Shown piece by piece: positions 29,396 through 63,849 of a stretch of DNA of 64,000 nucleotides. The position numbers and the translations under genes are program-made. This DNA is from Impatiens glandulifera. Its lineage: Eukaryota; Streptophyta; Magnoliopsida; Ericales; Balsaminaceae. The stretch is taken from contig NC_061862.1 of the NCBI RefSeq assembly GCF_907164915.1, forward strand, positions 91,653,995 to 91,717,994, given 5' to 3'. The notes below the pieces were generated by a model. It saw only the letters and a list, made by a program, of their open reading frames with translations, made no database searches and was not told the origin of the DNA. Each line of letters starts with the position of its first letter. The first letter of the stretch is position 1.

Positions 29396-29426
29396 TACTT
29401 AGGATCGAAAAAGAAATTAATCAGAA

Positions 29427-29438
29427 GCTCTGATACCA
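29427..29438 (-). other. Primer-binding site (initiator tRNA-Met)
   Basis: The minus strand reads TGGTATCAGAGC directly next to the 5' LTR. This 12-mer is the usual plant copia primer-binding site. Confidence 0.92.
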
Positions 29439-41871: not shown

Positions 41872-41880
41872 AACTAATGG
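41872..41880. repeat. Left 9-bp target-site duplication of the MULE
   Basis: AACTAATGG is repeated exactly at 63841-63849. Nine base pairs is the standard Mutator-family duplication. Confidence 0.95.
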
Positions 41881-42863
41881 TATATCAGATCTTCTGCTAC
41901 CGATTGCCGTGTTCCCCTGTGGCGGACCAATCAGATTGCGGCATTATTAATTTAATAATAAATCAATCTGGGCAGGAGACGGAGGGAGGGAGAATCCGGA
42001 ATCCGGGTTTAGGCCCGGGTTCACACCAGACGCCGTTAACGGAAGCGCCCGTTAACGCCAGGAAATAATATAATATTCAGATAATACCCAGATAAGATAT
42101 CTTCGCTCTGATCTACACGCCCGTTGCCATGACCCTCATGTAAACCCCGCATACCCACCCATGAGAAGAACGCCTGCCGTTCATGAAAATACACTTACAC
42201 GTCCATGTAAAGACCGAATTGACAGTCATATACTATTTACGTTTTTTAAATATTAGTTTAATTTATTAAATAGCACAGGCAGCGATATAATATTCGCTTC
42301 AATTAATTCAATCTTTTATTTTCTAGGATTTTATAATTTTTTTTTATTTAATTTTTTTTTACCTCGAGACTCTCTGGAGCGAAGATATATTTGCTTCAAT
42401 TAATTTTAATAAAAACCCCATGTAAAACCCCCCTACCCACCCATGTGAAGACCGCTTGCCTACCATGTAAAGACACTTACCCGTTTATGTGAAGGCCAAA
42501 ATGACATGGATTTTATATTTCCGTTTATTAAATATTAATTCAATTAATTGAAGATGACATGCAGCAACCGAACAAATCTTCGCCTCAATTACCGGCTTGT
42601 TTTCTTTTTCCATTTTTTTTTTATTTCATTTTTTTTGCCCCGAGACTCTCTGGAGCGAAGATATATTTGCTTCCATTAAGTTTAATAGAAACCTCATGTA
42701 AAACCCCCCTACCCACCCATGTAAAGACCTCTTGCCTACCATGTAAAGACACTTACCCGTTTATGTAAAGACCAGAATGACATGGATTTTATATTCCCGT
42801 TTATTAAATATTAATTCAATTAATTGAAGATGACATGCAGCAACCGAACAAATCTTCGCTTCC
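41881..42863 (+). repeat. Left terminal inverted repeat of the MULE (about 983 bp)
   Basis: The sequence from TCAGATCTTCTGCTACCG inward is matched by the reverse complement of 62858-63840. The outer 180 bp are GC-rich and hold the palindrome CCGTTAACGG (42033-42042) and a second CGTTAACG (42050-42057). The inner part consists of about two copies of a 277-bp unit (starting at 42364 and 42641), each with a 16-bp near-palindrome and CATGTAAA words. Confidence 0.93.
42364..42863. repeat. 277-bp tandem units in left TIR
   Basis: Two units begin CGAGACTCTCTGGAGCGAAG at 42364 and 42641. Each contains in order: a 16-bp near-palindrome, CATGTAAAACCCCCCTACCC, CATGTAAAGACACTTACCCG, and AACAAATCTTCGC. 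The right TIR has the same array plus a decayed third unit. Confidence 0.9.
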
Positions 42864-43374
42864 ATTCCTTGGCTACATTTTTTTTTTATTCCGTTTATTA
42901 ATAAATGTTAATGTAATTAATTTAAATTGAAAATCAGTACACGACCAAATATTCGCTTGAATTTTGTTTTTCGAGTAGACGATTGAAAGCGAAGATTTCT
43001 TATTTTCCAATAATTTTAGCCTGACGTTCATGTAAAACAACCTCCCCTCACATGAGAAGCCAACTTGACTGTCATGTAAATTCACTTACCCGTGCATTTA
43101 CATTCCACGAATAAATCTTCGCTTCTATGAATACTATCTCTTTTACATTTATTTTTATCATTTCTTTATGAATTTACGATATCGAACGAATATTTATTCT
43201 CTTCCATTACTAGTTGATATAATTTCAATTTCCCGCTACAAGCCGACTATCCCTCTATTTCATTTTCATAAGCAACTGTTCATATTCTTCTCTCTCTATC
43301 TCCCGGCGATAATCCAAACACTGAACGTCGAAACCCTAGATATTTCGTTTATACTACAAGGATTTCTTCTGAAC

Positions 43375-46300
43375 ATGTCGGGTAACCAAGGCAACAACAT
43401 GGAAGTGGATCATCCCATCGACTCCCGAGAGGTCGTCTTGCAAGTTTGTAGGAGCATAACCGAAAACGAAACTGCACCCACTCCGGCATCCAACGTCAAT
43501 CCCAGCACTAAACCAGAGAGGTATGTTCATCTTATTGTGTTTATACTAATTTTACACATGTTTATTCAATTTATTTCGTTGAATACTGATTTATGCTATC
43601 CCACCCAAAATAATGACTTCGAGGTTTAATAACTTTACATATGAAAGGAAGAGGAAGAGAAATCCGAAGACGAATACTAAGTCGTCGATGACTGCTGAAT
43701 CAGTTTCCACAGTTGCTGTCGAAGCTACTGATGTTGCTGCAGGTACTGATGAGATTTTACCACCACCTTTTCCCCCTAAAAAAAAACGAAATGTTATTCA
43801 TACCTCCACTCCAACAGTCGATGAAGAGTTACCAGAAGCACCCCCAGAAACCACTAATATTTCTCCGTCTACTACCCCATTCGATGAAGAGTTTCCCCCA
43901 TCTCCCCAAAAAACCAAAACCCGCAAGAAACGTAAAGTGACATTTCTAACCAGATCATCACCTCATGGCCTCGCTCAACTCATTCCTCAATTGAGCGTAG
44001 AACAGAGGGAAGCCGTGAAGGAAATCGGGTTTGGTTCTCTTCTTACAATGGGCGTCTCCAAGTGCCTGGCTCATTTTTCCAGACACGTAGTCCAATGTTT
44101 TGACCCGGATAAGAGTTCTCTGGTATTGGCAAACGGTGATGAGATCCGTATCGATGAAGATCTCGTACAGCTCGTGATGAACCTCCCTAGAGGGGCAATG
44201 AACGTAGTCGAGTCCGTTGGGTTGGACAAGACTAAGGATCCTGATTATTTTAATTTCTTGAGGGATTGGAAGACCAGATGGACCGGGGAAGACTCAAAAG
44301 CTCCCGAAACACTTTCTATGATCCCCAAGATATTGAGTAACACAAGTGCAGACAACGATTTCAAAATAGACTTCGTTGTCTTTGTTGTCTCTAGTTTTTT
44401 ATGTCCTGTTCAAAATTCACGAGCCAGGTAAACATGTATTCAAACCTATTATATATCTAATTGTATCTTTGAATACTGACAAATGTATTTTTTTCATTTC
44501 AGGTTCAAAATTCTCAAATCCTTAATGGAGGTTGATAACATAAAGGAACTGAACTGGTGCCACTTTACACTACAACGATTGGTTGACAGTGTAAGAAGTT
44601 GGCAAGAAAAAGCAAGTAAAGATAAAAATCCATATTTCGATGGACCTATAACCCTTTTATCGGTAAGTATTGTTGCCTCTCTTATATATGATTTATAGAT
44701 ATGTAATATTTTCTAACATGTTTCCCACTCCTTTACTCCAGATTTGCTACCTAGATGGTGTTTTTGTGGAAGGTGAACGTATCCCCTACGAGAGAAAATT
44801 TCCAATTATCTCCTGTTGGGATGACGTCAGCGTGTTAGAGTTTACCAACTTAGAAGGTCGTGCCGGTGGTTTTGGGCTGGGCAGGGCAAGGGCGCGCGTA
44901 GCAGTTGGACAACCCGAGAATCCAGTTGACTCGGTTGAAGTAAAAGAAGACGATAATGAGGTATGTGGAAACAATAAATTGACTCCCATTGTTCATTATT
45001 ATCCTGTTTACAAGATTAATGAAGTCTGTTTTTCATAATGTACAGTTGTTGACCTCCCAAATCCTGCAAACTTTTAAAGATACAGCCCAACAGCTGAATT
45101 ACCTATCCGGGGAGTTGGAGAAACGCAACATCGATCCGAAGCCCTTTTTTGAGGCCGGTTTCCTGAACCTCAGAGAGTCTGAAGGGTTCATGAAACACTT
45201 GAAGGTGGTGTTCGATGGTCCGGTTCATGTAGGTGTGGAAGATCCTACAAGGGAGGCACTTGTGGACACTTTACCGTGTGCGGGCTTGAAAGTCATTAGT
45301 CCCCGGGTTGATTACACATGTGAGACTGCATTGGAGGACCATGCAGACAATCCAACAACACGGGTTGAACAGAATGATTTAGAGGATGCAGTTATGCCCC
45401 ATCAAGAAAATCGTTCAGATCAGGTAGAACCGAATGATCTCGATGATGCAGTTCTGCACAATGAAGATCAGTCACTCCCTGTTCAAACGAAAGATGTTGA
45501 GGATGTAGGTCATGACATTGACGATGAATCACTCCTTGTTGAACAGGAAGTTGTACAGGCTGCATTTCAGCCCATTCAAGCCAAGTCACCCCCTTTTCAA
45601 CCGGACGAACCTGAGGATGCAGTTATGCCCCCTGATGAAAATCGTTCGGATCACGTGGAACCGAATGATCTCGATGATGCAGTTCTGCACACTGAAGATC
45701 AGTCACTCCCTGTTCAAACGAAAGATTTTGAGGATGTAGGTGTGGACATTGACGATGAATCACTCCTTGTTGAACTGGAAGATGTACAGGCTGCAGTTCA
45801 GCCCATTCAAGCGAAGTCACCCCCTTTTCAACCGGACGAACCTGAGGATACAGTTCTTCCCAACAAAGATGCCTCACCCCGTGTTGAACCAACTGATCAT
45901 GATGGCGAAGTCAAGGAACCGGATGAGGTACCCCCAGTGCAGACACCCACTCTTGAAGACGATGATCAGGGTGAAGGCAAGCAACAGGTTGAGGAACCCA
46001 AATCTCATCATTTAGAACCGAATGATCATGGTGCAGGGAAGGAAAATGTCGAGGAACCCCAAGCTCAGTCTGTTGCACCAACTGATCAGGGTGAGGGCAA
46101 GCAACAGGTTGAGGCTTCTAAGGCGGTTGAATCTTCTGAAGATGAAGATGAAGGTGATGGGGGGGGGGGCGCATCAACATTAAAGAATATCCTAAGAGGA
46201 AGATCTCAAAAATTCCTGTGCACCTTCGATCCCCTTACATGCAACAGGTGGCTGATATGTTGGACCACAAAATAACCAACAAGGAACAGAGATTAGCCGA

Positions 46301-47370
46301 TTTTGTGTTTGATGAAGACCTCCCTGGATCGTAAGTTATTTCGCCTTGTTTTAGAAATTTTAAAAATGAAATTATTTAGTTATGGTCTTCTAAATGAATG
46401 TATTTTGCAGTGACGTTCTGTACGTAGGTGCACCTGGTAATATCACCCGGGAATTACTTCGTTCAATGAAAATGGGTCGCGAAATTTCGAGCGAAGTGAT
46501 TGACGCTTGGTCCATAATTGTGCACTTCAAATGCCGTAGGTTGCCAAGGCATGAACCAAGAATAATTTGTTTCTCATCATGTTCACATGTAAGTGCATCT
46601 CTTTTTTTTTGCTATGTATTGTTTGATGTTCATGACTTTGATGCTCTGCCCTTATTTTGCAGGTTAATATGCAGCATGATGCCACGTTATTTTCCCAATC
46701 CATTGAAGAAGACATGAGAAACTACCAAGTCACAAAAGAAGACCTCATCTTCGCTGACGTGGTCTGTACATATCCCTCAATTCCAAGTAAATAATATGCA
46801 ATAATGTATTAAATGTTTGTGTTCTTTTTGCAGATATTCCTACCCGTTGTCGTTTCCCGACATTTCTTCCTTGTTTGTGTGAATATTAAGGACTCCAAAA
46901 TCGTTGTAATAGACAACTCCGGCCGTCCTCATGGAATGAAAATTTTGGACAAGTATGTCACTTTGAGTAAACAACTCGATTGTTTTGTGAAATTCTTGTT
47001 AAGTCAAGGCATGGACAGAATGGCTGCCAAGGTTAAAAAATACAGGATAACGGCACCAAAGCTGGACTGGCAAGACAAAACAAACAAGACAGACTGTGGT
47101 GTATACTTAATGAGACATATGGAAACATATAGAGGAACGGCGAAGAATTGGTCTATTGACATCAACGAAAATAATGTAAGTGTTATACCATATCTAATTT
47201 TTAGTAGATGACATTGAACAATTTTAGATGTTCTTATACTTTCTCTTGTTCTTTTGAAGGCCGAAGAAGCTTTGAGTACGTTGAGGATTAAATATTTATA
47301 CAGAATTCTTATGTCTGAGCACAATGTCAATAGGTTCAAGTTAAAGACTGCAATTAGATCAAGATATTAG
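43375..47370 (+). CDS. ULP-A: ULP1/SENP-type cysteine protease of the MULE, one frameshift
   Basis: Model: 43375-43520, 43648-44427 (acceptor could also be near 43620), 44503-44662, 44742-44960, 45046-46330, 46411-46588, 46663-46761, 46834-47175, 47260-47370. The N-terminal domain (EIGFGSLLTMGVSKCLAHFS, IDEDLVQLVMNLPRG) is shared with ULP-B. An acidic middle with two 77-aa repeats and a C48 protease domain follow. His (SRHFF, about 966), Asp (VIDNS, about 983), Gln (DWQD, about 1036) and Cys (TDCGVY, about 1044) are all present. Family knowledge: such enzymes cut SUMO-like proteins. The frame needs 12 or 9 G at 46159-46169 but 11 are present; downstream the correct frame reads IPVHLRSPYMQQ. 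With the G restored it would be about 1106 aa. This is either a mutation or a homopolymer error. Confidence 0.82.
45391..45851 (+). repeat. Two 231-bp (77-aa) acidic repeats within ULP-A
   Basis: Units start at 45391 and 45622 with GTTATGCCCC and encode ENRSDxVEPNDLDDAVLH and SLPVQTKDxEDVG in each. They are highly similar, so the duplication is recent. A third, partial unit follows at 45841. Confidence 0.88.
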
Positions 47371-47630
47371 GGATTTGTATGTCTTATACGGAATTATACT
47401 TGTACAGTAATTCTTATGTTTACACAGGTCAATTCACATTTTTTAATGTATGGATGTTTGATAGTGAATTATAACTTATAATGCAATTCAGATCTTAATG
47501 TATGGACTGCAATTCAGATGTTAATGTATGGAGTTATAATGTATTGATGTTTGATGTGTCTTCTTGTACCGATTTTTTTAAAATCATAAACGAGGACATT
47601 TTCTTAACTGTGTGTTTTAATATTCTTAAA

Positions 47631-47965
47631 CGAAGATATATTGTCAACATCATGAAACTGAAAAACTTGCAACCGTAATATCTTCTTCACTGAAAATTTT
47701 GAAATTCATAAACGAAGATATCTTCTTATGTTAATTTTTGGTGAAATCCATATTTTGGAAATCCGAGACGAAGATATCTTCTTCACTATATGTTTTTAAA
47801 TTCATAAACGAAGATATCCTCGCAACTATACATTTTGTAAATCATAAACGAAGATATCTTCTTATGTTAATTTTTGGTGCAATCCATATTTTTAATATCC
47901 GAGACGAAGATGTCTTCTTCACTATATGTTTGTCAATTCATAAACGAAGATATCCTCGCAACATG
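47631..47965. repeat. 136-bp tandem repeats with CGAAGATATCTTC cores
   Basis: Two copies with a period of 136 bp (for example CGAAGATATCTTCTTATG at 47713 and 47849). Each holds three CGAAGATATC palindromic cores spaced by 40-55 bp. It lies downstream of ULP-A and about 190 bp before the DUF7745-like start, so it could be a promoter or a transposase-binding array. Confidence 0.85.
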
Positions 47966-48154
47966 TAATGCACCTACCTGTGGTATGTATTGATTTCAAT
48001 TCAAGAATGAAAACTCATTTATTAACTTCAACTACTGCTGTATCAAGATCATCACTCTCATACCCTCACTCTCACTCTCACTCTCACATTACACTCTTAC
48101 TCCTTCCCGAATCTCTATCTACCGTTGTCTTTCCTTAAGCGTAAAACTCATAAG

Positions 48155-49321
48155 ATGGATGTAGAGATGGACCCAGACATGCTGGTTTTATCGCAGCAAC
48201 AACTGGAGCGATACTTAAGTCTGATCAACGATGACCCTGTCCCTTTTAGTGTCTATCATGTAGATGAGATTCTTCCTCTATTACGAATAAACGTTAACGA
48301 CGGACTGATGGCCCACATGCAAAGCAGATGGGATACGGACTCTCGTTCTTTTGTTATTGGGGAAATGCACATATGCCCGACGCTAGAGGACTTTGCTTCA
48401 ATCCTTAGGTGTGGTACAAATGCACTCATGATCTTGCCTGTCCATCAAGATCCTCATATGGCCGTCCACATTTGCGACAGCTTCTATGGATGTACAATGC
48501 TTGATGCTCTCTTGTTTACCCTCCAACATGGATTTCTGAATATGACAAACATAGACGAGTACATTTGGCGTGTCCAGGGAGCTGAGAGGACCATCAGCCA
48601 CACACAAAGCAAACTGATCATGCTTGTGGTTCTGGCTCATTTTTTTTTATGTCCGGCTGCAGGACGCCGGCCTTCGGAAAGGCTCCTGCGTGTAGTTCCT
48701 GCACTGATGGGAAACGCCCCAAACCTGGCTAGCCTGGTACTTGCTGAGACATTACTTGGTCTTAACGAATTTGTTCCCGAGGAAAACAACTATTCTCGCC
48801 GTGGATCACCTTTGGTTCTATACCTCTGGTTGTTAGACAAGTTGCATTGGTTGCCCCGTCCTTCAATTCCCTACACTTCCTTTGCCAATCTACAAGTGCA
48901 AAGGGTCAATGGACTCGTGCCTCCGAATTTTATTTCGGATATTCACCCAATTAGGTTCATTGTTCCGTGGTATCTGTTTACTGAAATGATGTACGAGATG
49001 AGGGGTTCTCCATTCATCATTTTGTTGGGCCTTCAGGGAACTACCTCCTACTGCACAAGTGTCATATACAGACAATTTGGCCTACGGAATCCCCTACCTT
49101 CAAATGGAGACAATCCTCCGGAGGACTTCATGTTTACTCCTCAACATCTTTACTTAGAGTACGCATCAATAATTGAAAATTCTTTGACGGTTTTCATCCC
49201 CAACCGATGGATCAATGCTGTGAACGAAGCCATTCAGCTATACATTCCACCCGTCATCGAACATGAGGTCGTGTCGCTGACAGGACCGATAGACGAGTCA
49301 TCCTCTCATGAATCAGACTAG
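48155..49321 (+). CDS. DUF7745 / plant mobile domain-like protein
   Basis: A single open exon of 388 aa from the first ATG (MDVEMDPDMLVLSQQ). The N-terminal part has a tryptophan and the phrase EMHICPTLEDFASILRCG, matching the PTLEDFxxIL signature of plant mobile/DUF7745 proteins. The C-terminal half has PFIILLGLQGTTSYCTSVIY followed by RQFG, matching the LLGxxGxxxYxPxLxxRQxG phrase of DUF7745 as I recall it. No catalytic motif is evident. These domains occur in transposons and in host genes linked to silencing, but no biochemical activity is established that I know of. The frame is intact with no intron. It is flanked by ULP-A and ULP-B on the same strand, with its own repeat-rich upstream region. 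Confidence 0.7.
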   Translation: MDVEMDPDMLVLSQQQLERYLSLINDDPVPFSVYHVDEILPLLRINVNDGLMAHMQSRWDTDSRSFVIGEMHICPTLEDFASILRCGTNALMILPVHQDPHMAVHICDSFYGCTMLDALLFTLQHGFLNMTNIDEYIWRVQGAERTISHTQSKLIMLVVLAHFFLCPAAGRRPSERLLRVVPALMGNAPNLASLVLAETLLGLNEFVPEENNYSRRGSPLVLYLWLLDKLHWLPRPSIPYTSFANLQVQRVNGLVPPNFISDIHPIRFIVPWYLFTEMMYEMRGSPFIILLGLQGTTSYCTSVIYRQFGLRNPLPSNGDNPPEDFMFTPQHLYLEYASIIENSLTVFIPNRWINAVNEAIQLYIPPVIEHEVVSLTGPIDESSSHESD

Positions 49322-49904
49322 AGCTTCATTTGTATTGTTGAACATCTCTATTTTTGGTTAATCTGTGCAGTACTTATGTAAACGGATTATGGAATGTTTT
49401 TGTGTATTCATCAATATTATGAAGTTATGTTTGATTATAGTCTGAAGTTATATTTTACATTATGTAGTTCGTTTATTCTGTAGTGATATAAATCGACTCA
49501 TTGTCGTTAGCTTTGATTCATTCTTTGATTGCAATTTGGATGTCATGATCAATTCAAAGTATAATGTAAAACAACTGATCTGTTCATGTAAACCCCTTCG
49601 ATTGATCAATCGATTGGTTGCTCGCTTCCTTACACCATATCTATTCAGTAAATCGAACGGACATTTCTTCGCCTGTAAAACCCTTAAAAACGAAGATGAT
49701 GTCGCATCCAATCTTTGAAGTTACATATTATTGTTGACACTTTCATGTCATACTGTAATGAATTGGAAAACGAAGAATCATTCGCCTGTAAGTTTCTATA
49801 TTAAACAAAACATTGTTACGAAACGACATAATATTCGCTTGATCTTCATATTTCAGGTCGACCACATTCAACGGAAATGTATTGAAAATATCTTTCATCA
49901 TTCA

Positions 49905-50390
49905 AAAAAGAAAAGAAGTGTGTTTTCGTATAAAACCCTATAAAGAAATCATTTCATATCTATGGATTACTGTATGTAGCCTGTAATGACATATCAAATC
50001 GGAACAGTGTGCAGTATTGTTGTCACATCAAAAAAATTAATAAATATTGTATTTTAATGAATTTGCAAATTATGTTTATTTTTCAATTTTTAAGCACATG
50101 ACTTCATCTAATTATATTTGAAAAGAAGCGAACATATATTCGTGTGCAGAACTAATTTGAAGCGAATAAATATTCGCTTGAATGAATTCTAGGTTGACTT
50201 ACATGTGAAACACACAACCCCTACATGAGAATACCCTTTACAACTGATGTAAGTACACCAACGCTTGTATGTGAAGACCAAAATGATGAATGAAAGTGGG
50301 AGGAAAATACACGCCGCGAATAAATCTTCGCTACAAACAATTTTTCAATTTCTCACATTTAATTTTTATTTATAATTATTACACATCGAA
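49905..50390. repeat. Direct duplication, copy 1
   Basis: It contains GAAAAGAAGTGTGTTTTCGT, CCCTATAAAGAAATCATTTC, ACACAACCCCTACATGAGAA and GCGAATAAATCTTCGC in the same order as 51465-51980. Divergence is modest with small indels. Confidence 0.85.
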
Positions 50391-51464
50391 TCGGACCAAA
50401 ACTTACATTTAAAATTATGGCAATGATATGACTTATGGGCAACGTATACTTAGCCAGAAGAGTAGATATGATAATACTTTCTTATTTTTAACAAATTCGT
50501 TATTTTATTAATGTTTAATGACATTTGCATGAAAATATAAATAACAAATAATTATTATAATTCGACGTACAAATTTTCATTACAAGTTTCATAAACATTT
50601 CCCCGTTTCATAAACATTTGTACATTTTAACAATATTAAGCTGCATCTCCAGCTTCAAGGCATCTCCATTGAAGCAACCACAGCGGATCTCTCACGCATA
50701 ACTGGGGTCATACACCTGTTGAGTTATCTCTTGAGATGTTTTCCATCCCAGGGAATCTCCCAAATGTTACATCCCAGGTAAGCAACCACAGCAGTGTACA
50801 CGAATGATCTTCATTTGATCGGTAGTTTCTACTTGAGTTACCAAGCATTCGTGGTAACTGAAGATGTTTTCCACCAGTTGATCTTGATTGTACAAGTTTT
50901 CCATCACAGAGAATCTCCCAAATGATACATCCCAACAAACTATATGAAAAAAACACACTCTCAACAACAACGCTCAATAGATATTTCATGCTGCCGACGA
51001 AGATTGTTCATGTAATCCCTACATTTATAGCAAAAAGAAAATCTGTTTTCTTCATAAATTATTCAGATCTATTGATTCAGAAAAAGTAAATTTCCCGTGA
51101 TGAAATATCAAATCCGAACAGTGTGTAGTCACTTTGTCACATCATGAAAAAGTAATTTCATTCACGAAAAAGTAATAACACTTAATAATATTAAATAAAA
51201 TAAATAATTCAATATTGTCATTCACATTATATTAAGATAATAAATTATTTCAACATGAATAAACACATTTTCATGAATAATTATAAAATTATATTCAATA
51301 TATTAACATTAATTCTTTTTATTAATTTTTAATTAAAGTTTAATTATTAAGCTTTTATTATTTTTAATTAAAGTTTAATTCTTTTTAATATTTTTTAATC
51401 TTATTCTTTTAATATTAACAATATTCCTTTGTTTTGTCACATCATGCAGAAATTATATGTCATC

Positions 51465-51980
51465 ATTGAAAAAGAAGTGTGTTTTTGTATAAAACCCTAT
51501 AAAGAAATCATTTCATATCTATGGATTCAGTAAAAGTATTAAGCATGTCATGACATGTCAAATCGAACAGTGTGCAGTATTGTTGTCACATCACAAAAAG
51601 TAAAAAATCGTATATTTTAATACAGTTTCCAATTCATTTGATTTTTATTTTTCTAAACACATGCATTCATCTAATTATAGAAGAAAAGAAGCGAACATAT
51701 ATCCTTGTTCAGTGAAAATTGCAAATTATGAGAAACTAATATGAAGCGAATAAATCTTCGTTGTAATGAATTATATGTTCACTTACATGTGAAACACACA
51801 ACCCCTACATGAGAATACCCTTTACAACTGATGTAAGTACACCAACGCTTGTATGTGAATACCAAAATTAATGAATGAATGTGGGTGGAAAACACACGGC
51901 GCGAATAAATCTTCGCTTCAAACCATTTATCAATTTCTATCTCCTGGATCACATTTCTTTTTTATTTATAATTCATTACA
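51465..51980. repeat. Direct duplication, copy 2
   Basis: Second copy of the 49905-50390 block, offset by about 1.56 kb. A third, decayed piece lies near 51045-51170 (AAATCCGAACAGTGTGTAGT). Confidence 0.85.
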
Positions 51981-52965
51981 GTCATATTTTTGTACGTTAC
52001 ATCATATCTTAAAGTAATCATTATACATCAATCATAATTTATATATTGTTAATTAAAAAGTTTAGGTGATGTTTGATCTACACTTACTATAATTAAATAA
52101 TTATAGTAACAAATTAAAAAATTAAAAAATTATTCAAAAAATTATTCATACATAACAAAATTATTCATACATATATCATATCTGAATACTACGGTCATAA
52201 ATTAAAAAATTACATTTACTATAAAAAACATTATATGAAATATTGAATAATTTCATACATAACAAACCTTTGTATTTATTACATGAGTGTCAAAGTAAAA
52301 TTTATATATTGTCATATATATTTCAAAAAAAAAATTAATTAAATTTAATTCACAGCTCAATTAAAAATGAAATTAATACACTGAAGCGCCAAAAATTTTT
52401 CCACATGTCAAGTCAACTGTCACAAAGTCTCAGGCTTTGTGACGACGGCCAGTCAATCGCTACCATCGAATCAAATGTCATTCGTTTAGATTGGATACGA
52501 TCTGTTAGATTGGCAGAGCGAAGATTTATTCGCTTATTCAGGATCGAGAAGCAAATAGTTGTTCATTTGGTTGGAATTTTTGTTCAAATCATGTGAAACA
52601 AGAAATACATGTACTAAGCGAAGATATATTCGTACATTGCGGAGTTCTGCACGAATACATCCTCGTCCATTGCAGTATGTTACTTTACATAATGAATAAT
52701 TACCTTTCACACTACAAAAGCGAATATCGCTTCGACTCGTACGAAGTTAATGAGAAACTCGTTATTCATGTTTGTGAAAACCGATACGGCCTAATGAAAA
52801 TACATTCACACTAACAGTGCACTGTGCCAAGTAAAGCTGTAAAACATCTGAAGCCCGAATCCGGCTGTCATACGTTATTCGACCATCTGACCTAGCGCTG
52901 TCGTCTCCTGCATTTCGACTACGAATCCATTTGTCTTCCGGTTAGTATCTTCGGCTCCAGCGAAA

Positions 52966-55900
52966 ATGGTAAGAAGTGTTTACGGTTGCATGCTTGTGTC
53001 TATTTCTTTTTCTTAGTTTACGTCATTCGAATCTAAATGTGACTTTAACATCTCAGAATCAGGATTCCGATATGCAAATAGTTCCATATACTGAATCCAC
53101 GACTGAAGTGAACACACTAAGGTAATTACGCGATTGTTACAATTGTTAAAATTTTACTATATTTGGATTAGGTGAATAAGCCAATTTGCTAATGATAATG
53201 TAGTGTTCAACAAAGGAAACGAAAACCCGATTCATCAGGCACGCCAACGACACCACTGGATATTCTGGCCAACGCGGCGAATGAAGCACTTAGTGAGAAC
53301 CAGGTTCAGAAGAAAAGAAGAAGGACTCGTGACCCTGAGGTCGATTTCAAGAGCAGAACCTCTCCATCGGGCCTTCATCACCTGATTAACAGGTTATCTG
53401 AAGAACAGAAGCAGGCTGTGAGGGACATAGGATTTGGTTCCCTTCTGTCACTTGGCATATCAAAATGCCCACTTCAATTCTCACGCTGCATTGTGAGTCT
53501 ATTCAATCCCAGAAGGAGGAGCATCGTCCTACACAGTGGAGAGGAGATGCAGATTGATGAAGAGGATGTTCAATGTGTATTGAACATACCCAGAGGTGAA
53601 TTAGTTGTGGCAGAGTGTTTGGGAAATCACACGGACGACAAGGTGTACAAGGACCATCTCACGGCGTGGAGAAGGAGATGGGGATTCGAGAACAGTGGAG
53701 GTCCTTCAACCTACCAAATGCCTGACAAAATTCTACAGAACACAGAAGGAGACAGTAACTTCAAGATGGACTTCGTGGTGTTTGTTGTATCCAGTTTTTT
53801 GTGGACATCCCAAAATCCACAGTGCAGGTATACCCAAAGAACCTAGCATTAATTCTGTGATCTCATTTAGAACTTCAATATAATTTTAAATGGCTTGAGT
53901 CAATACTTTTTTATTTTCAGATTCAAAGTACTGAAATCCCTCCAGGATGTATCTAAAATCAAAGACTACAACTGGTGCAAGTTCACGTTAGACGGGCTAG
54001 TCGACAGTGTTTATAAGTGGAAAGCAAAAAAGACATCCTATTTCCATGGACCATTAACCTTTCTTTTGGTGAGTGTAGAAATCTATTGGCTGGAGGTTGT
54101 CCATTCATAATTTTTTGATGACTTTGAACGTAACATATATTTGTTCATGCTAATGTATCAGTTGTGCTACTTGGACCGTGTGGTTGAGTTCAAGGTAAAC
54201 AGTAAGATCTCAAGGAGTTTTCCTATTCTAGGATGCTAGGACGAGAAGAAGATGTACGAAAGGGTTGACTATGAGGCTGCACAGGGGGGGTTTGGACATG
54301 GTAGGGTGGTTGCTCGCATAGCCATTCCGAATGAGCAGCCACCGATGCAACAAAATGTGCAGCCAACACCACCACAAACTGGAGATGACCATCCAACTGA
54401 GCATGCTCCAATTACAGAAAACCTGGCGTCATGTTTGAGGAAGGTTGCGGCCGCTGCCGAACAATTGGCACAAGGGGCTAAATATCTGAATGAGATGCAC
54501 CAGATAAACGCCATGGAACTTGTGCAGTCTGCATTTGAGCCATTGGCCACGGTGCTAAACTCCAATGCAATCTTGAGGGAAGGCTTACAGCGGAGTCTGG
54601 ACCAAAACAAAAAGCAGCAGCCCAGAGGAAGTGGCATTAACCCCAACACGGAAGCCACCACCCAAGCGAAAGGCAACACCCTTCCTACCAACAACCAAGC
54701 CAAATCCAACACCCCTCCTCTAAACACCCCAGACCACACACAACCCACCCTCACACCCACACCCCCATCCCACACGAACCCCCTTCCACTCAAAACAGTT
54801 ACCCAAACCCCAGCCCCACCCCCTCCAATGGCACAAGCCAAAGCCACACCCCTTCCTCCAATCACAACCACACCCCCTCCAGTGGCACAAGCCAAAACAA
54901 ACCCCATTCCTCCACTCAAAACCACACCCCCTCCAATGGCACAAGCCAAAGCCACCCCCCTTCCTCCAATCACAACCACACCCCCTCCAGTGGCACAAGC
55001 CAAAACAAACCCCATTCCTCCACTCAAAACCACACCCCCTCCAATGGCACAAGCCAAAGCCACCCCCCTTCCTCCAATCACAACCACACCCCCTCCAGTG
55101 GCACAAGCCAAAGCCAACCCCCTTCCTCCACTCAAAACCACACACCCTCTAGTGGCACAAGCCAAAACAAACCCCATTCCTCCACTCAAAACCACACCCC
55201 CTCCAATGGCACAAGCCAAAGCCACCCCCCTTCCTCCAATCACAACCACACCCCCTCCAGTGGCACAAGCCAAAGCCAACCCCCTTCCTCCACTCAAAAC
55301 CACACACCCTCTAGTGGCACAAGCCAAAACAAACCCCATTCCTCCACTCAAAACCACACCCCCTCCAATGGCACAAGCCAAGCCCCAAACCAACCCCATT
55401 CCTCCACTCAAAACCACACCCCCTACAATGGCACAAGCTAAACCCAAAGCCAACCCAATTACTCCCAAAACAGAAACCACCACGAACACCAGCACTCCAA
55501 CCACCCCAGCCTTGCCTCCTACCCTAATTATCCAAAAAAAAGAGGAAGCAGGACCTTCAAAGGCCTTAAATGTCCAAAGAAAACCCCCACGAAATTTGAA
55601 AACTGATTGGTTAACCGATGTCATCAAAACAGAAACCAACAAAGACTCCCCTTCTTTGGCGATAGTTAAAAAGGAACCTGAAGAATGCATCTCCCGTCTA
55701 CCACAGCCACTTCAAACCGCCTCTTCATTGGAGACAGTAAAGAATGAACCTGAAGAAGGCATCTCCAGTCTACTGACGACATTTCACACCGCCTCTTCTT
55801 TGGAGATAGTAAAGAATGAACCGGAAGAAGGCATCTCCAGTGTACTACCGCCACTTCAAACTGGCTCTTCTCGTCCAAACATGCAAACGAAAGAATGGCT

Positions 55901-57113
55901 TAAAGCATTGCACTTGCCTACAGCTTTGAAAACACCACAATTCAATAAAATGTTTAGGGATGACAAGAAACTAACAAACTTTCAGAAGATTTTTGTGGGT
56001 TTCGTATTTGCTGGAGGACTTGATCCAAGGTAATGTTTGCTGCAAATGCTTAATTATTCATAAAAAATAGGAATTGCACACCATCTTGAAAAATGTTTTG
56101 CTGTTTTCATGCAGTGAAATGTTATTTATTGCGGAACACCTATGTCTACACGTGACGCGCGGGGACATGCTTACAATGGCTGATCAAACCTGGGTAGACA
56201 GTATGATTATTGATGTTTGGTCATACATTTTGCACAACCTTTATAGGAAAAATGTCAAACCTCGTTACAAGAAGATTTTCTACACAACCGTGCTCACCGT
56301 AAGTTGTACTAGCACTGTTATTTATCAATTATGTTATTCTTGTGAGACTAAAGACTGCTGTAAACAGATTTTTCGTGAAGGTGGGATAACTACCCGAGAC
56401 AAATTCAATGACAGGTTCTGTCTAGAAGGTCGGGCTTTCCAAATTTCAAAAATCGACCTCTGGGAAGTGGACCTCGTAAGTACATCTCTGGCTGTCATAC
56501 CTTATAATATCATTTACCACTCAGTTCAAATCTAATCTTTTTTTTAATTCTATCCACAGTTGTTTTTCCCAATCATTGATGACAGACATTTCTACCTTGT
56601 TTGCTATAACTTCATACAACGGCAATTTCAAGTAATTGATAACCGGGAGTCACCTATGCAATCGCCCTTCGAAAGAAGATATAAGAATGCCCAAATCTTG
56701 GTATGACACTACAATTAACATTTAAAACAGTTCAAATTTGGAATTCTAGTAGCACTAAAATACATTACATAATGTTGTTTGTAATGATGTATCAGGATGA
56801 CTACATTCAACAATATATGAACGACGTAGACCCCGTTCTTGCTAAAAAGTATGGCGGTTTGGAAAAGATATGTCTGAAATTGCCATGGCAGGATTCAAAG
56901 AATTACACTGACTGCGGCATTTTTTGCATGAGACACATGGAGACGTATGAAGGTGAGGTGAAGGGGTGGAAAACTGGCTTTGGAGTTAAAAGAAATGTAA
57001 GGAACCAAATAAAGACATTGAGGATGGAATACTGTTGGCGTGTCATTGGCTCGGAGCTAAACAAGGCCAGGACCGAGGTCTACAATTCCTGCCGTAAATG
57101 GATAAGTCAATGA
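52966..57113 (+). CDS. ULP-B: second ULP1-type protease of the MULE, one nonsense codon
   Basis: Model: 52966-52968 (ATG only), 53057-53121, 53204-53827, 53921-54068, 54162-56029, 56115-56298, 56368-56475, 56560-56700, 56796-57113. All sites are GT-AG and the sum is 3,459 nt, which keeps frame for 1,152 aa. The N-terminal domain (DIGFGSLLSLGISKCPLQFS, IDEEDVQCVLNIPRG) parallels ULP-A. The middle is a proline-rich repeat domain. The C-terminal C48 protease has His (DRHFYLV, about 1010), Asp (VIDN, about 1027), Gln (WQDS, about 1079) and Cys (TDCGIF, about 1087). Codon 306 is TAG (54237-54239) where ULP-A has TGG (SCWDD versus GC-stop-DE). That is one G-to-A change, so a full protein is not made unless the stop is read through. 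Confidence 0.82.
54811..55455 (+). repeat. 18-aa (54-bp) proline-rich tandem repeats in ULP-B
   Basis: About eleven copies of a TTPPPxAQAKxxPxPPxx unit, arranged largely as 36-aa (108-bp) doublets alternating PPPMAQAKATPLPPIT and PPPVAQAKTNPIPPLK. The near identity of the doublets shows recent expansion. The repeats make a long open frame on the opposite strand, which is an artefact of composition. Confidence 0.92.
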
Positions 57114-57404: not shown

Positions 57405-57810
57405 CCGCATAAATATTCGCTTCAAAGACCTTCTCTTCATAAAATATATATGTGAAGCCTCGAATTTCATGAAAGAAATATGAAGAGAATAAATATTCGC
57501 CTCTAAGATATATTTTCGATTAAGCGAATACATATTCGCCTCAAATTATTGATTATGTAAAACCACCATCTCATCCATGAGAAGCGGGATGACTTGTCAT
57601 GTCACTGCAATTACCCCGACATGTACATACCAGTTTCAACATAAAGATCAATTTCGTCAGACAAATATGAGGAGAATAAATATTCGACCGAGATACATGG
57701 TGAGGTTCAAGCGAACACATATTAGCCTCAGTATTATGTTTCATTTTCTCAATTTGCATCTAAAAGGATACTTAATATTAGTTGACTTGGGGCGAATAAA
57801 TATTCGATTG
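57405..57810. repeat. Cluster of GCGAATAAATATTCGC-type sites between ULP-B and transposase
   Basis: Within 400 bp there are five sites in full or near-full form: about 57406, 57485, 57524-57539, 57675 and 57792-57807. There is also a CATGAGAAGCGGGATGACTTG module related to the terminal-repeat unit. The cluster sits between the converging ULP-B and transposase genes. Confidence 0.75.
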
Positions 57811-57949
57811 ATTTAGGTGTTTGTAATTTTTTAGAAATGAATTAGTGTGGTCATTCATTTGGTATTTCATAAAACTTCGCATGCATACATTCGACCTTAT
57901 TCTTTGTTTCAAATCCAACGTACATACAATACTATATACATATCAGATT

Positions 57950-60690
57950 TCACATGAAACTGGAATTCGATAGTTGAGATGACAAAAGAACAGTGAACGG
58001 AGTATTGGCGTCCATGCTGAAACTTTCGTCCCATTGTTGAGGAGTTGAGAACTGAGGAGTTGTCGTTGGCATTGCACTTGATGGCTGGAAAGGAATATCA
58101 AATTTATTTATAAGTATGTTATTATATGAATATTAATAACACAATTATTAGTAAAGAAGGGTAAGTCAGCAATTTCATACCGGAATATGTGAATCACTAG
58201 TTATTCTTGTTGATTTTCGTTTTCTTGAGTTCTTCTCCAGTCCACCTTTCCTTCTCTTACCCGACTTTGTTGGCTTCTTAGTTTTCATTCCTTTTGCTTG
58301 AACAGGGGCACCCTCGGCAGAACGTGATAAACCGGTTGGTGGAGTTTGCATATTTATACTCTCCTGCAATTTTTTATCCACAAACGTGCACTGGCTCAGC
58401 ATGATTTCTTTGACATGATTGTAAGTGTCATCTCTTTCGGCTGCCTTGTTAAATAAATGCATGGACAACCCACACAAATCTCTGTATCTTATGTTGTGAA
58501 GCTCACTCGGATCAACATTAGTACTGTCCACGATTGGATCAGTTCCAAATATTCCATCTTTGGCTGTTCTTGTCCACCTCTTCAATATCAACGCCGGAGG
58601 AATCTTCAACACGTCAATCGTTGTGAAAATCTTTAGGATGTGAGCACACAAAATCCCTCCAAATTCAAATTTACAGCAGCTACACTCGATATTCTTATCG
58701 TCATTCTTATGAACTGTAACTGTATGAGAGCATCTCCTAGTGTGGGGTGTTACCTTGTATTTTCTGTGTGTGTCGACATCCTCTAACATTTCAACACCAC
58801 AATCATGCGACATAAACCATTGTTGTTCAAAGCACTTAAAGACCTCTGGGGTGTAAACTTTGCAGGCATCCTTTAAGATCAAAACTGGATAGTTAAGACT
58901 AGGTTGGCTGGTAATTGATTTGAAATCAGCCTTCAACACATCATATCTTCTTTCATCGAGTAGTCTTTCAAAGTGTTTGAAAAATTCTAAAAACTTGTGT
59001 TTGTAGGAGCAGTACCTTTTCAACATACTGTTCATACTCTCACTTCTCTGTGTTGTCGTCATATCAGCACAAAACATTTGTCGTCCATACACTAATGCCC
59101 ACTTTCGCCTAATGCTAAACATGCGTTTCAACCAATCGTTGTTTTCAAGCCCGTAGTTTGTCAACATTTGATTCCAAGCTTCAACAAACTCTATCTCTTC
59201 TTCAAAATCATATATACACGAAGAAAAATCCTTAGAAAAATCTCTGAAATTATGGAACACCGAGCTAAGATGTATGGCTGCATTTTGAAATATGTGCCAA
59301 ATACAGAGACGATGATTAGTTTCGGGCCATTGAGACGCCAAGGCCTTAGCCATGGCCGCGTCTTGATCTGTAAGAATGGTTTTTGGTTTTTTTCCCATGC
59401 ATAGCTTTGGTGAAAGTCTCAAACAACCAATCAAAAGTCATCGCAGTTTCATCGTATAATAGAGCTGCTCCAAAAAGAATTGATTGTTTGTGATGATTGA
59501 CACCTACAAAAAGCGCAACTGGACGACCTTCATTATTCTTCTTGTATGTGGTGTCAAAACTGACCACGTCTCCGAAGTATGAATAATCGGACCGCATGTT
59601 GGAATCACACCAAAAAATATTCGTTATCAAATCGTCCGCATCAAGTTGAAAAGCATTATAAAAACCAGGATCATTGGATTGTTTGTTCTGCAAATACTCT
59701 AATACACCCCCTGTTTCCCCAAAATTACACTCTCTGGTTCTTTTCGTGCGCAGGTAATTTTTGTAATCCTCAGGAAGAAAACCTAGATTCTCCCTTCCAC
59801 CGATTTGTTTAGACATTAGAGCATGTGATGACTTAGGAGGAATTCCCACGTTATTGGCCATCTCGATATGTAAGCCTGCAACTGCAGAAATATTCCTATG
59901 GCATCTATACAGGTGAGTTTTCTTTGGACTTGCAAGAGGATGACTATGATCACTAATAAAATTTACCACTTGGAACTTTCCATTGTCTGCACGTTTTATC
60001 CTCAATTTCGCTTCACAACAGAACCGAGTCACAGAACGTCTACGTTTCACATAGACATCACGTTTGTCCTTTCCCCGTTCACCCTGTGCACTACAACAAA
60101 AAACTCTATCCAGTATTTTACCCTCCTTGTCTACATGTTTTGAACTGCGCCTTATACCAAATCCTATTAGTTTAGCGTATGCTAAGTAGAATACGTAGCC
60201 TTCTTCTTCACTCTCAAATTCTCTACCTAAAAGTGGAATTAAGTTGGATTCGATGTCCTCCAAAGGTTGGCCGTTTCCATCGAAATTCAATTGACGACGA
60301 CAAGTAGCAGATTCGCTGTTCAGTTTGAACAAGTGGAAAATAAAGGTTTGTAGATTATTGGAAAATGAAAACAATATAAGCGAAGAAAGCTTCACTTCAA
60401 CAGTATGAAGAGTGTAATATTAGGCGAATATAGTTTCGCTTCATAAGATATTATCTCATAATATAGTAGTGAAGAGATCTTCGCTTACATGTGCACTACA
60501 AAAATTGGAGATGTTAAACAATGTTACCTTAAATCAATAATATCATTCTCGTCCATATCATTCTCGCTGATACGTATTCCTTCCTGATAATCAAAAAGAA
60601 CAGAACATTTCATGTCGAGTATTCAAAAAACATAGAAAAGGTTGGGAAGAAAAGTAAAGGAGGTATAGATGACATTCAAAAACATACCAT
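57950..60690 (-). CDS. MULE transposase, FAR1/MURA type, one frameshift
   Basis: Minus-strand exons: 60690-60688 (ATG only), 60583-60528, 60315-58181, 58084-57950. The sum is 2,329 nt, one base over a multiple of three; without the extra base it would encode 775 aa. A FAR1-type zinc-finger DNA-binding domain (GREFESEEEGYVFYLAYAKL to SDHSHPL, about 50-155) is followed by a MULE DDE domain (SFDTTY, Asp about 274; LTDQDAAM, Asp about 336; QRSESMNS Glu about 445). A SWIM zinc finger (CSC...CAH, about 564-578) and a basic tail follow. It should bind the terminal repeats and cut the element out. The frame breaks at an A7 run (59387-59393), where six A would keep it. The fourth exon is inferred from clean splice sites. 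Confidence 0.88.
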
Positions 60691-60844
60691 TTTATAATTT
60701 AGGAAGATGGATTGATATTATAATGAAGTCTCCGGCGAAGGAGAGGTCGATGGTAGACAATGTAGTATAACTCCGGCGAAGAAATGGTCGTACGGTAGAG
60801 AGAGAGAAGCGTACAAAGTTGTCTAGGCTGCTCTTAGCATGGCT

Positions 60845-60858
60845 TGCTGCATGCAGCA
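60845..60858. promoter_or_regulatory. 14-bp perfect palindrome upstream of transposase
   Basis: TGCTGCATGCAGCA is its own reverse complement. It lies about 155 bp upstream of the transposase start codon, so it is a candidate regulatory site, unrelated to the GCGAA family. Confidence 0.4.
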
Positions 60859-61260
60859 TTTAATGAAAAGGTGGCAGGTGTTAGGTGGCGGTGAGGTGAC
60901 TTGTTAAAAAAATTATTTCATTTTAATAATTAAATGACAAAAATTATTATGAAATTAAATTAATAAATCAATCAATCAATCAGTAAGCGAAGATTTCTTC
61001 ACATTATTATTTTGACAATTGTTTTACAAATATTATTTTGACAGTAGTTTTAAAAAATATTAATTATTTATCAAATTTATACTTCAAGTTATACAGTATT
61101 TCTTAATGTTTCAAGATTTAGTTACATATAAGGCTGAAGTTTAAAAAAAAAAACAATACGAAGAACAAAAAACATAATTCTGAAATCAAATATGACATTG
61201 AATTTTCAAGAATGCAAAATATTCAAATATTAAGTAACAAATTAAACCAACACATGTCTA

Positions 61261-62432
61261 TTACAAAAACAAAGGCTGCAAATCACAAGCAGCAATGGAT
61301 TCTAGCAAGCTTGTGTGAGGAACACCAAACACATCCAAATATGTCTTCAGAGGATTCTCTGCCTCAAATACCCAAACAAGTTCATTAACATCGTGCCGAG
61401 ACTTGTCGTATACAACTATAGTTTTGTCGTCCTCGGGCTCGACAAATGGATTCTCCATTTCTTTAGTTGTACCTCCTCCAGCAATTACAAATCCCATAAG
61501 ATCAAGTTTGTAAGCCGGGATGAATTCCCCTGCAAATATGAAGGTGTAACTGTCGAAGAGTTTGGGCAGCTGAAAGAAAATACAATACATTATTAGTAAT
61601 CATGGACAATTGAATATCATATGGAGGAGTAGGAATAAGACAAAACTTACATTGTTCAAATAACGCATTCTGCCAGCTCTTGGACCGCCCACAGTCCCAT
61701 GATTATCTCGCTGCACCTCGTATGGTTCCTCGTCCACGTAACAGTTAAATCTGATTGATGATTTTATCCCTGTATAAAAGCAATAGGTGTTTTTAGTTTC
61801 ATATATGTGAAAATGAATATTGAGTTAACAGTAAAGGGTTAAGAATAACAGAGTCTAACAATCAATGGTAAGGACCCAACTCCCGTTCAATATGCCCTTC
61901 AATACTTTGATGGTGCGACCGCATCCACCATTAGAATCGGTGGATGCTATGACGTGGGTAACATCGTCTCGCCACCTCATTGACACCGTGGCACCACATG
62001 TGTTAGCATATTGTTGCATCAAGTGCTGTTTAAAAAAAATCATAAATATTTCAGGTAAACAGGATGAAAACTTATACAATATGGAAAAAAAAGGGAGAAA
62101 TGGAACGAAGAGTACTATCTCTTCACTTGTTAATTGATTTGGGCATAAAATCCAGTCTTTGCCAAAGTTTTGGACGGATGCTGAGGCAGTTGCCTGCAAG
62201 TGGATGAAAAAAAAAGGTCTTTGTGAGTATGTACTAGGGTTTCATGGAAATAATATCACAAAACACAACACTAGGTAAGTTTTCATAAATAACATTGATT
62301 TACAGTCAAGGTGACATTTTGAGAGTAGGGTTTCCTAAAGATTAAAGAGACAACAACATCACATAACAGAATCTAGTGTAGTAGTTCCATAATCCTAAAT
62401 AATAAAAGTTACTAGTCAGGAATACGTACCAT
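61261..62432 (-). CDS. BARD1-like tandem BRCT protein carried by the MULE
   Basis: Minus-strand exons: 62432-62430 (ATG only), 62193-62116, 62025-61860, 61769-61651, 61569-61261. All sites are GT-AG and the sum is 675 nt, giving 224 aa with no stop. The first BRCT repeat has CGATVSMRWRDDVTHVIAST and GILNGSWVLTIDW, where the TGG for the last Trp is rebuilt across a splice junction. The linker DEEPYEVQRDNHG and GPRAGRMRYLNN matches plant BARD1. The second BRCT has LPKLFDSYTFIFAGEF and ends SIAACDLQPL. Tandem BRCTs bind phosphopeptides in DNA-damage signalling; plant BARD1 also acts in meristem gene control. The RING and PHD parts are absent, so this is a captured C-terminal reader module. Intact splicing and frame suggest selection or recent capture. 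Confidence 0.87.
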
Positions 62433-62568
62433 TGTGGAGTCGTGAAGATGTGGATTCAGGTTCGGTCGACGGGGAGCCGGTTACGAATCGCCGTGAAAAG
62501 GAGGCAGGAAGAGAGAGAGATGAATCGGGCGGCAATGATAATAAAATAATCATATTAGGGGGTATATA

Positions 62569-62735
62569 TATTCATGTAACCGGGGCGAACATGTCTTCTT
62601 TCGAAAAGCGACTATTCATTCCATGTAACATGACACAGGGACCAAGGGCGAATAAGTGTTCTCTCGAGAAGCGACTATTCAATCCATTTTACATGGAACA
62701 TGGTCTAGGCGAACAAATGTTCTTTTCCAGCGAAA
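62569..62735. repeat. About 63-bp tandem repeats upstream of the BRCT gene
   Basis: Three units, each with CATGTAAC or ACATGGAAC, then GCGAA(C/T)A...GTTCT/TCTTC and AAGCGACTATTCA. The GCG positions are 62585, 62648 and 62709. They are related in wording to the terminal-repeat modules and lie 140-300 bp upstream of the BRCT start codon. Confidence 0.7.
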
Positions 62736-62857
62736 AAATTTAAATAAATAAAAAAAAGTAATGAATTAATTGAAGCAAATATATCTTCGCTCATGAAGGA
62801 CTCCACCCAAAAAAAATTAAATAAAAAAAAAATTGGAAAAAATATCTAGCCGGTAAT

Positions 62858-63840
62858 TGAGGCGAAGATTTGTTCGGTTGCTGCATGTCATCTTCAATTA
62901 ATTGAATTAATATTTAATAAACGGAAATATAAAATCCATGTCATTCTGGTCTTTACATAAACGGGTAAGTGTCTTTACATGGTAGGCAATAGGTCTTTAC
63001 ATGGGTGGGTATGGGGGTTTTACATGATGTTTTTATTAAAATTAATGGAAGCAAATATATCTTCGCTGCAGAGAGTCTCGGGGCAAAAAAAATGAAATAA
63101 AAAAAAAATTGGAAAAACAAACAAGCCGGTAATTGAGGCGAAGATTTGTTAGGTTGCTGCATGTCATCTTCAATTAATTGAATTAATATTTAATAAACGG
63201 AAATATAAAATCCATGTCATTTTGGTCTTCAAATAAACGGGTAAGTGTCTTTACATGGTAGGCAAGCGTTCTTCACATGGGTGGGTAGGGGGGTTTTACA
63301 TGGGGTTTTTATTAAAATTAATTGAAGCAAATATATCTTCGCTCCAGAGAGTCTCGAGGTAAAAAAAAATTAAATAAAAAAAAATTATAAAATCCTAGAA
63401 AATAAAAGATTGAATTAATTGAAGCGAATATTATATCGCTGCCTGTGCTATTTAATAAATTAAACTAATATTTAAAAAACGTAAATAGTATATGACTGTC
63501 AATTCGGTCTTTACATGGACGTGTAAGTGTATTTTCATGAACGGCAGGCGTTCTTCTCATGGGTGGGTATGCGGGGTTTACATGAGGGTCATGGCAACGG
63601 GCGTGTAGATCAGAGCGAAGATATCTTATCTGGGTATTATCTGAATATTATATTATTTCCTGGCGTTAACGGGCGCTTCCGTTAACGGCGTCTGGTGTGA
63701 ACCCGGGCCTAAACCCGGATTCCGGATTCTCCCTCCCTCCGTCTCCTGCCCAGATTGATTTATTATTAAATTAATAATGCCGCAATCTGATTGGTCCGCC
63801 ACAGGGGAACACGGCAATCGGTAGCAGAAGATCTGAACTG
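62858..63840 (-). repeat. Right terminal inverted repeat of the MULE (about 983 bp)
   Basis: Reverse complement of 41881-42863. Where I compared them directly (for example 63541-63660 against 42061-42180) the two are identical. A third, decayed 277-bp unit extends further inward to about 62770. Confidence 0.93.
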
Positions 63841-63849
63841 AACTAATGG
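63841..63849. repeat. Right 9-bp target-site duplication of the MULE
   Basis: AACTAATGG, identical to 41872-41880. Confidence 0.95.

Follow-up and report, generated by a model that had tools for sequence, protein, structure and literature searches.

Known elements and the Impatiens transposon

Several groups of Mutator-like elements (MULEs) bear comparison with the subject of this report, a five-gene transposon of about 22 kb found in a 64,000-nucleotide stretch of the Impatiens glandulifera genome (contig NC_061862.1, positions 91,653,995 to 91,717,994; hereafter the window). The transposon is one mobile unit present in multiple copies, and we assign it from its sequence features to the Mutator superfamily, with a Jittery domain layout: it has a MULE transposase domain, a 9-bp duplication and long terminal inverted repeats (TIRs), and the FAR1 N-terminal and SWIM C-terminal domains of its transposase are common to the Jittery group. 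What we say of described systems refers to the consulted portions of the papers cited. That MULEs bearing ULP (Ulp1-type, C48 protease) sequences are known had been said in the first-pass annotation of the window; they are described from Arabidopsis, melon, rice and grapevine and include Jittery-like elements (PMC2528002). The Jittery group has the grapevine families Jitvine-1 and Jitvine-2, with lengths of 11.9 and 14.4 kb for Jittery-like elements; in some Jittery-like grapevine families ULP sequences are reported downstream of the transposase, and grapevine MULE families reach 16.2 and 17.7 kb (PMC2528002); the size novelty claimed in the first pass is therefore reduced, although the element remains unusually elaborate. 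The Jittery subgroup of dicots and monocots (group 36) is tabulated with one open reading frame (ORF), TIRs of 39-292 bp or none and, as the only duplication length given, 8 bp, and ORF numbers across the MULE table, where given, are 1 or 2; against these Jittery entries the window element has five genes, TIRs of about 1 kb, a length of 22 kb and 9-bp repeats (PMC6446971).

Likenesses to the Kaonashi elements and ULP-bearing VANDALs lie in the C48 genes running opposite to the transposase (here ULP-A and ULP-B on the plus strand, the transposase on the minus strand), in the presence of several genes, in a repeat-bearing, variable accessory protein and in a short noncoding motif, whereas KI-MULEs have no TIRs, a mudrA-type transposase and three genes, the VANC21 motif YAGTATTAY is non-palindromic where the motif of the window element is a palindrome, and the text consulted for Kaonashi and VANDAL makes no mention of a BRCT gene (PMC13317346, PMC5735166, PMC2528002). 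Recognition of motifs of their own family is described for the ULP-carrying VANC genes (PMC13317346), and the VANDAL target motifs and VANC proteins are described as changing by tandem repeats (PMC5735166). PMD-bearing MULEs carry a captured mobile-domain protein proposed as an anti-silencing factor, whereas the window element has a DUF7745-like gene and PMD/DUF1985-like domains that are at most weak and lie in a separate gene (PMC5418596, PMC6446971). Abermu of barley is likewise a multi-gene, high-copy MULE with an accessory ORF on the reverse strand, but it has three ORFs in more than 8 kb and is nearest to MuDR; its authors wrote in 2022 that a MULE with two extra ORFs was previously unreported (PMC9168764).

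No element with the present gene set (a MULE with BRCT/BARD1 and DUF7745 genes) was found in titles and abstracts of the open-licence literature, in line with the first-pass remark that no element with this set was known to it; accessory ULP genes and multi-gene MULEs were already known, and it is the five-gene combination for which the literature searched gave no counterpart. MuDR and Hiun/VANDAL21 are much smaller than the window element. Like it, they carry accessory genes beside the transposase, but with two and three genes, respectively (PMC6446971).

Structure, ends and copies of the element

The element spans 41881-63840 and is bounded by the 9-bp direct repeat AACTAATGG, a flanking duplication already reported in the first pass; this word has just two plus-strand occurrences in the whole window, which are the two duplication copies. 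The parts of the element are as follows, with window coordinates and strand.

41872-41880, no strand: left target-site duplication AACTAATGG (direct sequence match)
41881-42885, plus strand: left TIR, about 1 kb, with the terminal CAGT changed to TATA and subrepeats of about 276 bp at 42134-42866 (TIR alignment and other copies)
43375-47370, plus strand: ULP-A gene, 9 exons; N-terminal domain in common with ULP-B, acidic region, C-terminal Ulp1/C48 domain (Pfam and splice models)
45382-45861, plus strand: 231-bp coding repeat in the acidic region of ULP-A (sequence)
48155-49321, plus strand: DUF7745-like gene, single exon, 388 amino acids, open (Pfam and open frame)
52966-57113, plus strand: ULP-B gene, 9 exons, of which exon 1 is the start codon alone; proline-rich linker, C-terminal C48-like domain (splice models and profile match)
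54811-55471, plus strand: 54-bp coding repeats in the proline-rich linker of ULP-B (sequence)
57950-60690, minus strand: transposase gene, 4 exons; FAR1 DNA-binding, MULE transposase and SWIM domains (Pfam and splice models)
61261-62432, minus strand: BRCT gene, 5 exons, 224 amino acids, BARD1/BRCA1-type tandem BRCT, open (Pfam and PDB matches)
62837-63840, minus strand: right TIR, with terminal ACTG (TIR alignment and other copies)
63841-63849, no strand: right target-site duplication AACTAATGG (direct sequence match)

The TIR pair (41885-42885 and 63836-62837) agrees at 97.8% of 1,001 columns, with a single gap; the inverted repeats predicted in the first pass are thus present, but are about 1,001 bp long where about 983 bp had been given, and are not identical throughout. 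An alignment of 1,006 columns has 3 differences inside the outermost four bases (left TATA, right CAGT); the first difference past these stands at column 572, and from there inward there are 22 substitutions and the one gap. CAGT...ACTG are the termini of four of the five other whole copies, so the left end of the window copy is altered. In the remaining copy the termini are CAGA...TCTG, and nine additional bases separate the left terminus from the duplication. At each end of the six copies, 2-5 matches to the TIR subrepeat unit were counted, and an Rfam scan returned nothing at the gathering threshold.

For the copies we searched the 654-Mb assembly (1,110 contigs) with a 300-bp TIR query and took the best 40 of 1,298 candidates, each an end match of at least 296 bp at 99% identity or more. 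Twelve of these 40 ends combine into six pairs with a spacing of about 22 kb, one of them being that of the window element. The five other whole copies are 22.2-22.8 kb in length, collinear with the window element (three of them in reverse orientation) and 95.5-98.4% identical to it (distance 1.6-4.5%), and all have the five genes of the window copy in unchanged order between different 9-bp repeats. Five of the 28 unpaired ends, on small contigs, were left out; among the 23 checked, 14 have a partner TIR at full-length distance and nine have none, which brings the paired loci to 20 of the 29 examined. Read from the flanks, an exact 9-bp direct repeat stands at 16 of the 20 paired loci (at one of them nine bases off the left end), a repeat with one mismatch at one and none at three. 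The first-pass view of a single mobile unit, for which further copies with the same genes and different duplications had been named as a check, is borne out by these copies and pairs.

Between elements on different chromosomes, 9-12 bp of flanking sequence are equal in two cases (locus L027 with L039, and L044 with L059), and the elements ending in L039 and L059 are without a direct repeat. Such shared flanks suggest recombination between copies or an assembly join, and a shared flank of 9 bp can be a chance agreement of A/T-rich bases.

We also searched the assembly for single genes of the element. Among the best 150 of 1,580 candidate loci for the BRCT protein, with 90-99% identity in the last exon, 141 have no stop and nine have one; among the best 106 of 3,049 for the DUF7745 protein (85-100% identity), 88 have no stop and 18 have stops, frameshifts not being counted. 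At least 42 of the 106 listed DUF7745 loci are followed within 20 kb by a BRCT exon that converges on them, 36 of these at a distance of 11-14.6 kb, and a BRCT exon on the same strand downstream, or upstream, within 20 kb occurs at none among the matches listed. Shuffled positions, kept within contig extents approximated from the match lists, averaged 0.84 such pairings over 200 trials and never exceeded 3. For the other 64 DUF7745 loci, the BRCT partner is either outside the listed matches or missing. All nine further elements that were probed match BRCT.

Genes and open frames

We derived the splice models manually from the sequence and verified them on the other copies; their intron ends are GT/AG in all six copies save for one ULP-B site in one copy. 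The transposase matches the Pfam domains FAR1 (PF03101, E 5.3e-21), MULE (PF10551, E 7.6e-13 and 1.7e-11 in its two frames) and SWIM (PF04434, E 4.1e-8), ULP-A matches Peptidase_C48, and the BRCT protein matches BRCT (E 1.2e-6). The C48 match of ULP-B (E 0.0014) and the DUF7745 match (E 5.2e-5) are under cut-off; with that qualification, the domain matches agree with the transposase, two ULP1-type proteases, DUF7745-like protein and BARD1-like BRCT protein named in the first pass. What we take to be the histidine, aspartate and cysteine motifs of C48 proteases can be read in both ULP-A and ULP-B. The resemblance of the two is 51% over 259 codons of the N-terminal domain and 30% over 250 of the C48 part, and was judged on protein only because their synonymous distance is saturated (NG86 yields no value). 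A search of a 5.8-billion protein set found no homologue of the DUF7745 or ULP-A protein at E 1e-3 (3,583 candidates; best 7,989 candidates). In three of the five genes, ULP-B (52966), the transposase (60690) and BRCT (62432), the first coding exon consists of the ATG alone.

The first-pass description of the element as structurally complete does not extend to its reading frames, three of the five genes being broken in the window copy: ULP-A by a frameshift at a G run (46159-46169), ULP-B by a TAG stop (54237-54239) and the transposase by a frameshift at an A run (59387-59393). The DUF7745 and BRCT genes are open. Because the ULP-A and transposase frameshifts both fall in homopolymers, these two of the three lesions could be assembly errors. 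Over the six whole copies the transposase is open in four, DUF7745 in five, BRCT in five, ULP-A in one and ULP-B in four, one of the last with an altered splice site. We considered whether the broken genes mark a dead family and rejected this, since one of the six copies keeps all five frames open. A Pack-MULE that has lost its transposase was also rejected, the transposase being present in all six copies and open in four of them.

Selection and mosaic divergence

Pooled over the 15 pairs of the six copies, the ratio of nonsynonymous to synonymous substitution (dN/dS) is 0.19 for the transposase, 0.18 for BRCT, 0.35 for DUF7745, 0.59 for ULP-A and 0.75 for ULP-B. We also compared single-change codon variants with the neutral expectation, excluding multi-change codons (46 in ULP-A and 5 in ULP-B); the resulting p-values are guides, as the pairs are non-independent and shared variants are counted simply. 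For the transposase, 20 synonymous and 15 nonsynonymous variants (p 1.3e-4) point to purifying selection. Less firmly, the same appears to hold for BRCT, with 7 synonymous and 6 nonsynonymous variants in the six copies (p 0.037) and 8 and 7 in a set of 14 (p 0.029) made up of the six whole copies and eight more, one incomplete match being left out. In this larger set 16 of 675 coding columns are variable against 42 of 497 intron columns (Fisher p 3.7e-6), and the exons are stop-free in 13 of the 14 aligned copies, two of the matches starting past the ATG exon. ULP-A also shows a synonymous excess, with 86 synonymous and 154 nonsynonymous variants (p 0.0034). The number of 54-bp coding repeats in ULP-B varies between 8.5 and 13.4 copies; this variation in the linker repeats, like that of the TIR subrepeats, parallels the change by tandem repeats described for VANDAL elements (PMC5735166).

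Divergence from the window copy is unevenly distributed in one of the five other copies, where 45881-47881 (mostly the 3' half of ULP-A) and the intergenic 49381-51900 are several-fold more diverged: four 500-bp bins of 45.9-47.9 kb differ by 11-14%, the stretch of 49.4-51.9 kb by 4-14%, the TIR regions by 3-9% and most of the remainder by 0-4%. We read this mosaic as a sign that parts of the element have been exchanged between lineages.

A palindrome in the noncoding DNA

Counts of short words showed GCGAAGAT-type words to be enriched in the noncoding DNA of the element. As a convergent pair, CGAA-N6-TTCG is present at 15 places in the 10,006 noncoding bp and at one in coding sequence, and is absent from the 42,040 bp outside; no other spacing of CGAA and TTCG up to 40 occurs more than 3 times in the noncoding DNA. 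Extended to GCGAA-N6-TTCGC with at most one mismatch, the palindrome has 25 noncoding sites, none in 10,950 coding bp and one outside, a count that excludes the second TIR; a first-order Markov null averaged 0.12 sites over 100 trials and never exceeded 1. With up to two mismatches the 6-base spacer gives 39 noncoding sites, 3 coding and 6 outside, and spacers of 10 and 11 likewise stand out, with 12 and 16 sites. Apart from sites in both TIRs, the following groups stand out.

49770-52735, no strand: intergenic cluster at 49770, 50128, 50162, 50316, 51746, 51901, 52518, 52618 and 52720 (at most one mismatch)
57485-57807, no strand: cluster between the 3' ends of ULP-B and the transposase, at 57485, 57524, 57711 and 57792 (motif scan)
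60380-61002, no strand: sites in transposase intron 2 (60380, 60424, 60469) and in the gap between transposase and BRCT (60987) (motif scan)

Each of the six copies has 29-35 palindromes, both TIRs included, and in one copy four of them lie within segments absent from the window copy. Tandem repeats 3' of ULP-A (47572-47962) are rich in CGAAGATAT and contain further half-sites of the palindrome.

Relatives of the BRCT protein

A homologue search whose length range excluded full-length BARD1 proteins gave ten matches to the BRCT protein at 38-46% identity, eight with plant names, one nameless and one a transcript from a eukaryote set. The best match in the PDB is BARD1 (E 8.2e-15), followed by BRCA1. 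Eight of the ten, presumed to be host BRCT proteins, were aligned with it: among themselves they are 49-68% identical (one same-genus pair 95%), and to each of them the protein of the element is 40-47% identical. It retains 47 of the 62 residues that do not vary in the eight, and its match lies at the C-terminal end of the plant proteins. These comparisons fit best with a BARD1- or BRCA1-like gene as the source of an old capture, which took in the C-terminal BRCT pair and would have been retained since as a gene of the element.

Proposed mechanism and alternatives

We propose, giving the whole of this reading about an even chance, that the element is an autonomous cut-and-paste MULE of Jittery type whose ULP proteins read the palindrome in the manner of VANC, whose DUF7745 protein is a helper and whose BRCT gene is a retained capture. 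The transposase would bind the element ends and cut. ULP-A and ULP-B, or one of them, would act like the VANC/KIU proteins of Arabidopsis, sitting as dimers on the GCGAA-N6-TTCGC palindromes and clearing the element of silencing marks, the substrate of the C48 domain being SUMO or another ubiquitin-like tag; by analogy with those systems, the chances that the ULP proteins are such anti-silencers seem to us evenly split. The DUF7745 protein may be a transposon-borne, mobile-domain-like factor that aids anti-silencing, and the BRCT protein could perhaps tether repair or chromatin factors at the site of excision or insertion. A bolder version makes all five proteins one transposition apparatus, in which BRCT steers repair or chromatin at excision and insertion, the ULP proteins clear silencing through the palindrome and each part is selected; this we consider rather unlikely. 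The first-pass phrase of a "cooperative" transposon is likewise something we would infer from selection on some of the genes.

A number of results weigh against our proposal. ULP-B looks near-neutral among the six copies (38 synonymous and 96 nonsynonymous variants, p 0.48), the DUF7745 excess is not significant (8 and 9, p 0.079), and the ULP-A value rises to p 0.054 without the most diverged copy. The five comparisons of BRCT with that copy are uneven, with dN/dS of 0.82, 0.83, 0.16 and 0.22 and one without synonymous change. Relationship of the N-terminal ULP domain to mobile-domain proteins finds little expression in Pfam, where ULP-B matches DUF1985 at E 0.027 (14.9 bits against a cut-off of 35.1) and PMD at E 0.06, both far under cut-off, and ULP-A matches neither. 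AlphaFold models, with mean pLDDT of 36.0 and 49.7, were too poor for a fold search. Variable positions make up 15 of 200 in the palindrome cores and 998 of 8,680 in the background, a marginally lower share in the cores (one-sided p 0.044); of the five comparisons with the most diverged copy, a single one falls below 0.05.

Two of these points, those on ULP-B and BRCT, would suit an account in which the extra genes, BRCT above all, are passengers without function, captured by a transduplication like that of Pack-MULEs. Capture of host gene fragments is frequent in MULEs (PMC13317346, PMC2528002), the BRCT protein is less similar to its presumed host counterparts than these are to each other, ULP-B looks almost neutral among copies, and three copies show little synonymous excess in BRCT against the most diverged one. 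Passengers would hardly be expected, however, to keep BRCT stop-free in 13 of 14 copies with coding sequence less variable than introns and a pooled dN/dS of 0.18, to leave 141 of the best 150 last-exon loci without stops and 47 of 62 invariant residues in place, or to stay together as five genes in all six whole copies with BRCT in all nine further elements, and we judge this account distinctly unlikely. That the 22 kb is a composite of nested elements between unrelated TIRs is hardly credible: the mosaic copy, with its two strongly diverged segments against 0-4% elsewhere, is what one might cite for it, but the six whole copies match one another collinearly over their full length and all have an exact 9-bp repeat, 20 TIR pairs stand at full-length distance, and on the six collinear copies we rejected a nested or composite insertion.

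A further alternative concerns the palindromes, which may be mainly binding sites of the transposase, for example of its FAR1 domain, or promoter sites, the ULP proteins then acting in some other way. The transposase does have a FAR1 DNA-binding domain, and palindromes in both TIRs and between genes are placed as subterminal transposase sites would be; clusters far from the ends (49.8-52.7 and 57.5-57.8 kb) and in a transposase intron are, on the other hand, distributed like VANC targets (PMC5735166). We regard transposase or promoter sites as possible, short of probable, and retain recognition by the ULP proteins as our working proposal.

Other features of the window

Outside the element, identical 200-bp direct repeats at 27292-27491 and 29439-29638 flank a fragment of a Copia-type gag-pol gene (ORF 27473-29062, minus strand, by eye). 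The segment of 27292-29638 is probably an internally deleted long terminal repeat (LTR) element; no 5-bp duplication is obvious in the flanks at its bounds. Two open frames recognised by eye are apparently host genes, a long one for a leucine-rich-repeat receptor kinase at 31252-33942 and one for a WD40-repeat protein at 17712-18536.

Implications

Accessory genes of MULEs are known, mostly one or two per element, and their use is unclear. The family described here offers a gradient of constraint across five genes, with the transposase strongly constrained, BRCT strongly so in pooled tests, DUF7745 suggestively, and the ULP genes fast and mosaic. The palindrome is a ready DNA probe for the protein that reads the element. 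Because the family is high in copy number and carries five genes along such a gradient, two questions become testable: the reason for the frequent presence of Ulp1-type proteases in MULEs, and whether the repair proteins of a host are recruited by transposons as lasting components.

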